From: Candidatus Palauibacter scopulicola
GTDB taxonomy: Bacteria; Gemmatimonadota; Gemmatimonadetes; Palauibacterales; Palauibacteraceae
Reading direction: 5' to 3'
Length of the DNA stretch: 64,000 nt
NCBI RefSeq assembly: GCF_947581915.1
Contig: NZ_CANPWG010000008.1
Coordinates: forward strand, 124,001-188,000
The notes under the pieces: generated by a model
What the model saw: only the letters and a program-made list of their open reading frames with translations
What the model was told of the DNA's origin: nothing
The model's database searches: none
Part shown: in pieces, positions 16,928 through 36,873 of the stretch
Numbering within the stretch: the stretch's first letter is position 1
How the letters are laid out: the number at the start of each line of letters is the position of its first letter
Program-made: the position numbers and the translations under genes

Positions 16928-17679
16928 CCGCGCGCCTCGCGCACGAGTTCCGACATCTCGAGCACCGCGCGTTCGATCCCCACGAGCACGGAGCGGCTCA
17001 CGATCGAGTGGCCGATGTTGAGTTCCTCGCACTCCAGGATCGCCGCCACCGGCTGGACGTTCTCGTAGGTGAGCCCGTGTCCGGCGTGCACCGCGAGGCC
17101 GGCGCCCTCGGCCCGCATCGCCGCCTCCTCCAGCCGCGAGAGTTCACGGTCGGCGCTCGCCCGGTCCGGGGCGTTGGCGTATTCGCCGGTGTGAAGTTCG
17201 ATCGCCGCCGCACCCGCCTCGGCCGAGGCGTCGACGGAGGCGGGATCGGGGTCGATGAAAAGCGACGTGCGGATCCCGGCGTCCTGGAGCCGCGCCACGG
17301 CGGCGGCGATGCGGGCGGGATCGACGGACAGGTCGAGCCCGCCTTCGGTCGTCAGTTCCTCCCTCTTCTCGGGCACGAGCGTGGCCTGAGCCGGGCGCCA
17401 GCTCTCGGCGAGGGCGAGCACCTCCTCCTCGGCCGCGAGTTCGAGGTTGACGAAGGTGCGGACGGTCGCCAGCAGGAGTTCCACATCACGGTCCTGGATG
17501 TGCCGGCGGTCCTCGCGGAGGTGCACGGTGATCCCGTTCGCGCCCCCGAGTTCGGCGAGGACGGCGGCCCGCACCGGGTCGGGCTCGTCCGTGCCGCGCG
17601 CCTGCCGGACGGTCGCCACGTGATCGATGTTCACGCAGAGCCGGCAATCGACCAGATGCGAGAAGCTGCTGTTCGCCAT
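16924..17679 (-). CDS. pdxJ: pyridoxine 5'-phosphate synthase
   Basis: A 251-aa TIM-barrel enzyme that condenses 1-deoxy-xylulose 5-phosphate with 3-amino-2-oxopropyl phosphate in vitamin B6 synthesis. Motifs are [15 protein letters not shown] at the N-terminus, [42 protein letters not shown] and [12 protein letters not shown]. Start ATG 17679 has GGGAG at the proper spacing. It is followed by the UPF0104 gene with a GTGA overlap. Confidence 0.96.
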
Positions 17680-34097: not shown

Positions 34098-34242
34098 GCG
34101 TCTTCGCCACTCCGCCGCCGGCCCCGCTTCACGCTCGCCGCCCAACCCGGCGGCGGCAGTTCTTCCGGGCCCGAAAACCTCCGCCGCCGCCGCCGCGATG
34201 GTGCCGTATTACGCCCGGGGGCCGTGGATCCGCTCACAATCT

Positions 34243-34280
34243 CCCCCCAAAACCAGGTGCAAGCCCCCAAAATTGGGGGG
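34243..34280. promoter_or_regulatory. paired C-run/AAAA/G-run operator-like sites upstream of the first LuxR gene
   Basis: Site a (34243-34257) has CCCCCC-AAAA with a degenerate right arm. Site b (34264-34280) has arms CCCCCAA and TTGGGGG around AA. The A-tracts are 20 bp apart, about two helical turns, so both sites face the same side of the helix. The pair ends about 80 bp before the gene start. The same arrangement precedes the paralogous regulator. Confidence 0.7.
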
Positions 34281-34360
34281 TCCCTGCACGCGGCCGAAGG
34301 CGTAACATGTATGCGTAGTAGAGCGATCTGTATGTGCATGCGGAGCGGGCGAGGGCGACG

Positions 34361-35533
34361 GTGCGCGCAAACAAATCTCCAGACGGTTCGTTCGACCGCA
34401 TCCTTGCGTCGTTGCATGCGACCACTCTCGACGAAGCGCGGTGGCCCGAGACGGATCGCCTGATCGCTGAAATCAGCGGTGCGAGCAGCAGCGGCCTGGG
34501 GCTGTTCAGCGGGACGTCTCAGGCCGACGGGACGGCATACCTCATTCGGATCTCCCTTCACGGCCAGCGCCGCAAGGACTGGGAGCGCAGGTATTTCGAG
34601 GACTACTGGCCCGAAGACGAACGGATCCCGCGCATCGCTCGGCAGGCGTACGGGCGCCTGGTGCCCACGGGCGATCTGTACGCGGCCGCGGAGAAGAAGA
34701 CGTCGCCCGCCTACAACGAGATGCTGCTCGAAGCCAGGATGCAGCAGGGCCTCAACATGCGGCTGAAGGGCACGAAGGGCCTGAATGCCGTCATATGGAT
34801 CGTCGGCGATCCCGTTGAGCGGGGAGGCTGGCGCTCCGATCAGATCCGCCTGATCCAGCGACTCCAGCCGCACATTCGCCAGTTTGCGCTCGTGAGCCAC
34901 GCACTCTCCGAAGCGAACCTCACGGGCACAACCATGATGGAACTGCTCGCCACCCCGCGTTTCGGCGTCATCCATCTCGACCGGCGCGGCCGGATCATGA
35001 GGGCGAACGACCGGGCGCTGGAAATCCTGCGGGAGGGCGATGCCCTGATGGACCGGGACGGGTTCCTGCGTACACGCTTGCCGGACGAACACGCCGAACT
35101 GTCTCGCCTGCTGGGACTCGCCCTGCCGCCCTGGGGAGTGCAGGGCTCCGCCGGCTCGATGACGGTCACGTCGCCGTCCTCCTCTCCCCCAAAAAGGTTG
35201 GCCCTGCACTTCACGCCCCTGGGCGATGACTATCCGCACTTCAGAACGCGCAGACTCGGCGCGATGGTCCTCGTCGTGGATCCCGCCGGCCGCTCCCTGA
35301 TCGATCCGGTCCACGTCGCGGCCGCTCTGGACCTGACGTCGATGGAGAGCGAACTGGCCGTCGAGCTGGCCGCCGGACGGACGGTGCAGGACATCGCGCG
35401 CAGAATCGGGCGCACGGAAGCGACCGTTCGGTGGCACGTGAAGCAGATCTACCGCAAGCAGGGCATCTCGCGGCAGGTGGACCTGGTGCGGCGAGTCCTG
35501 TCCCTGGAGGGCTTTGGCGGGACCCGCCCGTGA
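34361..35533 (+). CDS. LuxR-family helix-turn-helix regulator, paralogue 1
   Basis: A 390-aa transcription factor. The C-terminal 60 residues are a LuxR/FixJ-type HTH (SELAVELAAGRTVQDIARRIGRTEATVRWHVKQIYRKQG). A PAS-like segment lies in the middle (FGVIHLDRRGRIMRANDRALEIL), and the N-terminal 170 residues are an unrecognised sensor-like domain. It is not a TraR-type acyl-homoserine-lactone domain by eye, and no receiver domain is present. I chose GTG 34361 (GAGGG just upstream), aligning with the second paralogue; GTG 34334 is the longest option. The paired inverted repeats upstream suggest autoregulation or cross-regulation. Confidence 0.85.
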   Translation: MRANKSPDGSFDRILASLHATTLDEARWPETDRLIAEISGASSSGLGLFSGTSQADGTAYLIRISLHGQRRKDWERRYFEDYWPEDERIPRIARQAYGRLVPTGDLYAAAEKKTSPAYNEMLLEARMQQGLNMRLKGTKGLNAVIWIVGDPVERGGWRSDQIRLIQRLQPHIRQFALVSHALSEANLTGTTMMELLATPRFGVIHLDRRGRIMRANDRALEILREGDALMDRDGFLRTRLPDEHAELSRLLGLALPPWGVQGSAGSMTVTSPSSSPPKRLALHFTPLGDDYPHFRTRRLGAMVLVVDPAGRSLIDPVHVAAALDLTSMESELAVELAAGRTVQDIARRIGRTEATVRWHVKQIYRKQGISRQVDLVRRVLSLEGFGGTRP

Positions 35534-35587
35534 TCCTCTGACAGCCCGTAAAAAGTTCGTTTGCAGGCAGATAGGCTTTGCCTCTCA

Positions 35588-35624
35588 CCCCCTAAAATAG
35601 GGGGGCATACCCCCAAAATTGGGG
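35588..35624. promoter_or_regulatory. paired C-run/AAAA/G-run operator-like sites upstream of the second LuxR gene
   Basis: Site a (35588-35604) has arms CCCCCTA and TAGGGGG around AAA. Site b (35610-35624) has arms CCCCAA and TTGGGG around AA. The A-tracts are 21 bp apart, and the pair ends 88 bp before the gene start. A CACGCGG-to-CGTAAC segment just downstream also resembles the one after the first pair. Confidence 0.72.
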
Positions 35625-35712
35625 AGTAGTCACGCGGGCGCCGTGCCCGTAACCATCGTCGGTGGTGACGCACGATACCAGCGACCGGGTTACGAGGGCG
35701 GCACATACGCAG

Positions 35713-36873
35713 ATGACATCCCGAGGGGATCCATACGATCGGATCGTGGGGTTGTTGAACGACGCCACGTTCGACGAAGCGCGGTGGGGCGAGGTGATTC
35801 GCCAAATCGGCGAAGTCGGTCGCATGAGCGGCAGCGCCCTGACGCTCTATGACACACAGGGGGCCGATGTGGCGGTCTTCCTGAACCAGGTCTTCCTCCT
35901 GGGACAACGGCGCAAGGACTGGGAGCACAGGTACTTCACGGATTACTGGGCCCGAGACGAACGTGTCCCGCGCGTCGCCCAACTGGAGCACGGGCACCTC
36001 GTGTCCACGGGGGGTCTGTACACGGACGCCGAGAAGAAGACGTCGCCCACCTGGAACGAAGCGCTGGTCGCCGCACAGGCGCAGGACGGCCTCTGCGTGC
36101 GGCTGGACGGCCCGAATGGCGTGGGCCTCGTATGGGAGCTGTGCGATTCCACGGAGCGGGGAGGCTGGAGTTCCGATCAGATCCGGCTGATCGAGCAACT
36201 CCAGCCGCACCTTCTGCAGCTCGCGATCGTGCGCCACGCGCTGGTCGAAGCCGAGGTGGGGGGCAGGTCCGCAACGGATTGGCTCGCCAACCCGCGTGCC
36301 GGGATCATCCATCTCGACCGACGCGGCCGGATCATGGCGACGAACGACCGGGCGCTGGACACCTTGCGGCGGCGCGATGGCCTGATGGACCTGGAGGGCT
36401 TCCTGCATGCCCGGATGCCGGAGGAGAACGCCGAACTGTCTCGCCTGCTGGCGCTCGCCCTGCGGCGCTGGGGAGTGCGGAGCTCCGGCGGCTCGATGGC
36501 GATCACTCAGCTCTCTTCTCGCCCGCGACGGCTGGCGCTGCACGTCACTCCGGTGGGCGATGACTACCCGCACTTCAGAACGCGCAGGCTCGGCGCGGTC
36601 GTGCTCCTCGTGGATCCCACCAGTCGGGCCCGGCTCGACGCGGTTCATGTGGCCAAGGCCCTGGACCTCACGAGGACGGAGAGCGAGCTGGCGGTGGCGC
36701 TTGCGGCCGGAAGGACGGTGAAGGACTTCGCGCAGATGATCGGTCGCACGGAAGCGACCGTTCGGTGGCATCTGAAGCAGCTTTACCGCAAGCAGGGCAT
36801 CTCGCGGCAGGTGGACCTGGTGCGGCGGGTCCTGTCCCTGGAGGGCTTGGGCGCGGCGCCCCGCGACCTCTAG
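35713..36873 (+). CDS. LuxR-family helix-turn-helix regulator, paralogue 2
   Basis: A 386-aa close paralogue of the preceding gene, alignable along the whole length. Shared landmarks include QRRKDWE(R/H)RYF, EKKTSP, ERGGW-SDQIRLI, FGVIHLDRRGRIM (here AGIIHLDRRGRIM) and the HTH ending KQGISRQVDLVRRVLSLEG. Divergence is greatest in the first 170 residues, so the two probably sense different signals but could recognise the same DNA. I chose ATG 35713 from alignment with paralogue 1; GTG 35662 is the longest option. It ends 10 bp from the convergent CRTAC1 gene. Confidence 0.85.
   Translation: MTSRGDPYDRIVGLLNDATFDEARWGEVIRQIGEVGRMSGSALTLYDTQGADVAVFLNQVFLLGQRRKDWEHRYFTDYWARDERVPRVAQLEHGHLVSTGGLYTDAEKKTSPTWNEALVAAQAQDGLCVRLDGPNGVGLVWELCDSTERGGWSSDQIRLIEQLQPHLLQLAIVRHALVEAEVGGRSATDWLANPRAGIIHLDRRGRIMATNDRALDTLRRRDGLMDLEGFLHARMPEENAELSRLLALALRRWGVRSSGGSMAITQLSSRPRRLALHVTPVGDDYPHFRTRRLGAVVLLVDPTSRARLDAVHVAKALDLTRTESELAVALAAGRTVKDFAQMIGRTEATVRWHLKQLYRKQGISRQVDLVRRVLSLEGLGAAPRDL

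Follow-up and report, generated by a model that had tools for sequence, protein, structure and literature searches.

Paired palindromes upstream of tandem PAS-type LuxR genes in Palauibacter: probable operators of an adhesin regulon

The stretch of DNA analysed here (the window, 64,000 nucleotides) comes from a genome of the genus Palauibacter (Gemmatimonadota) and carries two tandem paralogous genes, LuxR-a and LuxR-b, which are 61% identical. A pair of sites and presumed promoter elements precede each gene, and a remnant of another gene lies upstream of LuxR-a. The features are as follows.

34107–34240, forward strand: scar left by an autotransporter adhesin gene, lying between LuxR-a and the DsbA-like gene (78% match over 242 bp).
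34243–34259, forward strand: LuxR-a distal site, CCCCCCAAAACCAGGTG, read from the sequence; half-palindromic, with a degenerate right arm.
34264–34280, forward strand: LuxR-a proximal site, CCCCCAAAATTGGGGGG, from the sequence, its shuffles (0 of 40) and orthologues.
34303–34308, forward strand: presumed −10 box of LuxR-a, TAACAT, placed by a register peak across promoter groups.
34334–35533, forward strand: LuxR-a gene, starting at GTG 34334 or GTG 34361; a sensor/PAS-like part and a C-terminal LuxR HTH, from PF00196 (9e-07), alignments and a structure model.
35588–35605, forward strand: LuxR-b distal site, CCCCCTAAAATAGGGGGG, from the sequence, its shuffles (0 of 40) and four orthologues.
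35610–35626, forward strand: LuxR-b proximal site, CCCCCAAAATTGGGGAG, from the sequence and four orthologues.
35627–35632, forward strand: presumed −35 box of LuxR-b, TAGTCA, abutting the proximal site and invariant in four orthologues.
35650–35655, forward strand: presumed −10 box of LuxR-b, TAACCA, placed by the conserved CGTAAC and the register peak.
35713–36873, forward strand: LuxR-b gene, from ATG 35713 (longest open frame from GTG 35662); LuxR-a paralogue, PF00196 (2.4e-05).

The C-terminal GerE HTH family PF00196 is found above cut-off in both proteins, which places them among LuxR/GerE-type regulators. Pfam PAS matches fall below the cut-off; a structure model and fold search put a PAS-like domain beside the HTH. 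No match to the Pfam autoinducer-binding domain appears in either protein up to E 0.1. The LuxR-a model (mean pLDDT 75.6) presents an N-terminal domain like the LasR and CviR ligand domains, followed by the PAS-like domain and the HTH. Its fold-search matches include VqmA and EL222, along with the LasR/CviR ligand domains at a target TM of ~0.6; only the domain order is usable, because whole-chain TM scores are low. The nearest named matches to LuxR-a are from Ca. Palauibacter rhopaloidicola (83%) and Ca. P. denitrificans (64%).

The original prediction described two inverted repeats, each a C-run, an A/T centre and a G-run, in front of each LuxR gene. The pairs stood, with the correction that the LuxR-a distal site is a half-palindrome only; its half-site CCCCCCAAAA..CAGGTGCAA is kept in the Ca. 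P. rhopaloidicola and G019 orthologues. The claimed spacing of 20–21 bp agrees with a centre-to-centre distance of ~21 bp in both pairs. The sites were also said to end 80–88 bp before the start, which holds for starts at 34361 and 35713, while GTG 34334 leaves 54 bp for LuxR-a. Site arms built of a C-run and a G-run bear out the view that this is not a classical lux box.

The paired palindromes are genuine and occur far more often than chance would give. Within the window, the exact pattern CCCCNAAAWTNGGGG is confined to the LuxR-a and LuxR-b loci. Genome-wide it has 9+6 matches (15 overlapping, at 10 places), with 0.24 expected from base composition, and the control pattern, read backwards, has 0 matches in the genome. 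Out of 40 dinucleotide shuffles made for each upstream region, none attained the palindrome score of the sites.

A common flank, CACGCGG...CGTAAC, had been pointed out as well, and it coincides with the presumed −35/−10 region. Across six unrelated promoter groups, likeness to TATAAT peaks 22–24 nt past the proximal site (~4.2/6 vs a background of ~1.9), a register in which the sites fall near −44 and −65. An RNA hairpin, serving as a leader element or terminator, could fold from the five G-C pairs around a 4–6 base loop, but the presumed −10 lies downstream and would leave the sites outside the transcript, the pair spacing corresponds to near-whole helical turns, and no T-run follows the sites. 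Nor do they share flanks, as copies of a dispersed repeat element would. That the palindromes are either of these things is highly improbable.

Lying on one helix face beside weak −35 boxes, the sites are likely laid out as for an activator in contact with polymerase. The LuxR proteins could instead bind and repress, blocking polymerase at −35 in a negative autoregulation that would also keep the adhesins described below silent as long as no signal lifts the block. Such self-repression is common, and the proximal site directly adjoins the presumed −35. The distal site near −65 and the weak −35 boxes nonetheless fit activation better. PAS-LuxR relatives such as PimM, moreover, activate (PMC9774167), and repression appears unlikely here.

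Conservation was followed in a LuxR clade of 14 genes at least 58% identical to LuxR-a, the window pair included, where a site was a palindrome within 350 bp upstream unmatched by any of 40 shuffles. Copies near related LuxR genes, which the original prediction called for, were found: 11 of the 14 members have a strong upstream site, and these 11 head their own transcription unit. The three without a site are internal to transcription units: G031a comes directly after G031b, and G030a and G032a lie ~24 bp behind a DsbA-like gene. The four LuxR-b orthologues retain both sites, followed by invariant TAGTCA and conserved CGTAAC boxes. In LuxR-a orthologues the proximal site is a full palindrome and the distal one a half-palindrome; a third subgroup has a site pair 34 bp apart. 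In G020, both arms of the second site are altered and the palindrome is preserved (CCCGCCAAGTTGGCGGG).

Tandem paralogues at 61% identity could owe their upstream likeness to a recent duplication of LuxR gene plus promoter, an alternative that the original prediction had itself raised. When the LuxR-a and LuxR-b upstream regions of the window are compared in register, however, the sites show 64% identity, against 27% for the flanks on either side, so recent duplication is not the explanation. The sites also recur before non-homologous genes, and the chance that they are such a leftover is negligible. As a separate observation, LuxR-a is only a fragment in G019 C131 (L113:2918-3266), but the two-site promoter of that gene remains whole in front of LuxR-b.

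A sequence-only model built on 17 two-site promoters (R1) has matches in 9 of 9 genus genomes with a close LuxR vs 0 of 8 without one (Fisher 4e-5 over 17 genomes, ignoring phylogeny; these are not independent, because the co-occurrence is confined to one genus). G024, which is without the LuxR, has one motif match. In a sample of 249 phylum genomes, searched at E ≤ 0.001 with stricter filters under which the weaker G021 and G032 matches were lost, R1 has one match outside the genus, inside a coding frame. This match (G201) was rejected; the open frame that holds it reads by eye like a TonB-type receptor.

Distant LuxR homologues have palindromes of their own. A Chloroflexi homologue carries CCCTCCGTTTGGAGGG at the same place with a partner 21 bp away, a Binatia homologue carries CCCCGTAAAATTACCGGGG at the same place, and those of G022 and G025 share TACC(T/C)CATTTGAGGTA at a similar position, weak against shuffles (L048, L049, L064). 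Different palindromes at the same position are the expectation if operator and HTH diverge together. From the sequences we infer that LuxR-a and/or LuxR-b bind the sites. Another regulator might own them and control both the LuxR genes and the adhesins, with the LuxR proteins as mere targets. G030 and G032, which have the LuxR with no site upstream of it and keep a site elsewhere, speak for this and against the LuxR proteins as owners. Motif presence tracks the LuxR clade in the 17 genomes, however, and that, together with the different palindromes of the distant homologues, makes an outside owner of the sites decidedly improbable.

A genome scan had been proposed as the way to define a regulon, and the sites do define one. 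Large secreted proteins carrying Fn3/cadherin, LRR, Big and RCC1 domains are encoded behind the same site or pair. The G020 target, of at least 1969 aa, combines Fn3, SWM and cadherin domains, and two more relatives of this adhesin lie behind the site in G019 (C167 and C2). LRR and Big_2 proteins stand behind it in the source genome (C53) and in G026 (C47), as does an Fn3/He_PIG protein in G026 (C53). Outside its training set, R1 found an LRR/Big protein in the source genome (C65), a Big_9 protein, an RCC1 and Big_2 protein, and an amidohydrolase (G031). The source genome has ~28 open frames with Big_2 or LRR_8, and because such genes make up roughly one in a hundred, the Big/LRR company of the sites is unlikely by chance, although few targets are readable in that genome. 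The predicted regulon consists of large secreted, eukaryote-like repeat proteins, a class absent from the original prediction.

Weighing against the operator reading, some single sites precede genes whose connection is not evident (AraC-like, a 183-aa membrane protein, an amidohydrolase), and others fall between genes (C54:12049 and C45 of the source genome; G019 C38). Two paralogous 183-aa membrane proteins, for which Pfam gave no match, each lie behind one CCCCCGAAATTGGGGG site (L034:4776-4791, 17155-17171; G020 C74 = L068, L077). A conserved single site is found 5′ of a BTAD-type regulator gene in G030 C35 (L116:1-2700), G031 C28 and G032 C4, with a weaker one at C46:94432 of the source genome; that C46 site, CCCCCAAATGAGGGG, and several one-site matches are uncertain as true sites. 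Site pairs between large repeat-protein genes in G019 C38 and G026 C60 (L117:3659-3698, L199:3339-3378) have no clear downstream start, and a small gene or RNA may have been overlooked there. In G031 C16 (L191:1-361), an R1-predicted two-site promoter leads into an 8-nt repeat, GGCGAGCA, at the contig end.

Several contigs end in a (GCAG)n tract, in an open frame directly after a presumed start codon (C12 and C44 of the source genome; G019 C91 and C81; G026 C20 and C49). Contigs break or are gapped at these tracts (examples are L031:1-60, L032:8374-8427, L110, L150 and L152), and we infer an adhesin beyond them from G020, where both sides join across a gap. Contig breaks conceal several of the targets. 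A repeat unit not divisible by three inside a reading frame, a feature of contingency genes, is present in C12, C44 and their relatives, and the adhesin-type genes with (GCAG)n tracts are likely to be phase-variable. A (GCAG)13 tract is also found inside an Eco57I-type DNA methylase gene (C1:17753 of the source genome, L149:3754-3805; G025 C17, L151); in the source assembly, the tract separates two parts of this gene that do not share a frame.

The locus itself retains a trace of an adhesin gene. The 242-bp match that reveals the scar covers the LuxR-a promoter of Ca. P. rhopaloidicola and the 3′ end of the autotransporter gene that precedes LuxR-a in that species. The G019 counterpart of that neighbour has Big_9/cadherin repeats and an autotransporter barrel. 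The scar here and the intact adhesin neighbour in relatives indicate that the regulator adjoins an adhesin gene in the relatives and that this gene was lost from the source genome.

Clade conservation, the regulon and motif–LuxR co-occurrence support the original interpretation that conserved sites and geometry mark functional operators. The best reading of the whole, held with good though not full confidence, is that the sites are operators of the adjacent PAS-type LuxR proteins, autoregulatory, probably activating, and driving an adhesin regulon. Each palindrome would fit one protein dimer, and the two sites, at about −65 and −44, would lie on the same helix face immediately 5′ of a weak −35. 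The sites would be bound by one or both of the PAS-type LuxR proteins encoded alongside, which would so control their own genes, and the same two-site promoter would drive the large secreted Fn3/cadherin, LRR-Big and RCC1-Big proteins. By position, the LuxR proteins would most likely activate transcription; a ligand of the N-terminal sensor/PAS part would trigger activation through signal sensing, and the regulon may serve contact with a sponge or coral host.

Reports of eukaryote-like repeat proteins in sponge symbionts are frequent. The sites are probably the control switch of a gene set for host interaction. A wider picture is offered only tentatively, as a possibility that we would not favour at present: a host-interaction switch of two layers in an uncultured lineage of sponge symbionts, in which a self-regulating LuxR-solo pair would sense a host or community signal and control eukaryote-like adhesins, whose expression would be further randomised cell by cell by frame-shifting tracts, with the design recurring in other phyla under lineage-specific operators. 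If true, these proposals would provide a testable operator, regulator and target list for a phylum with almost no genetics, and would tie a LuxR solo to symbiosis-type surface genes, not to antibiotic synthesis or classical quorum sensing. The literature searched contained neither the motif, nor anything joining Gemmatimonadota, LuxR, sponge and quorum sensing, nor a described regulator of sponge-symbiont eukaryote-like repeat proteins; the Palauibacterales paper makes no mention of LuxR or adhesins.

A comparison with known systems places these regulators among several families. The N-terminal domain of the LuxR-a model resembles the ligand domains of LasR and CviR, and the proximal site lies at a position that we take to be near that of the lux box. 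The AHL LuxR receptors (LasR, CviR, LuxR) differ, however, by their autoinducer-binding Pfam domain and lux-box operator, neither of which is found here. VqmA and EL222, which join PAS or LOV to a LuxR HTH, are structure matches for the PAS-HTH part and weak sequence matches in the HTH. This modelled likeness covers the PAS-HTH part, whereas LuxR-a is longer and has a further N-terminal domain.

The closest known kind are PimM, PteF and their Streptomyces relatives, which combine a PAS-like part with a C-terminal LuxR HTH, as the LuxR-a model suggests for the proteins here. These PAS-LuxR activators recognise CTVGGGAWWTCCCBAG, a 16-bp palindrome placed in the −35 region of their targets (PMC9774167). 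The operators are alike in plan: in the PimM type, too, G/C runs flank an A/T centre (PMC9774167), and the position of the sites here relative to the presumed −10 fits. Despite this, the operator here, CCCCCAAAATTGGGGG, does not match CTVGGGAWWTCCCBAG. Unlike the PimM type, the system here has an extra N-terminal domain, two helix-phased sites and its own promoter as a target, and its predicted regulon comprises adhesins, whereas the PimM type controls antibiotic genes. The system is filed here as a variant of LuxR-type regulation, distinct from the PimM family.
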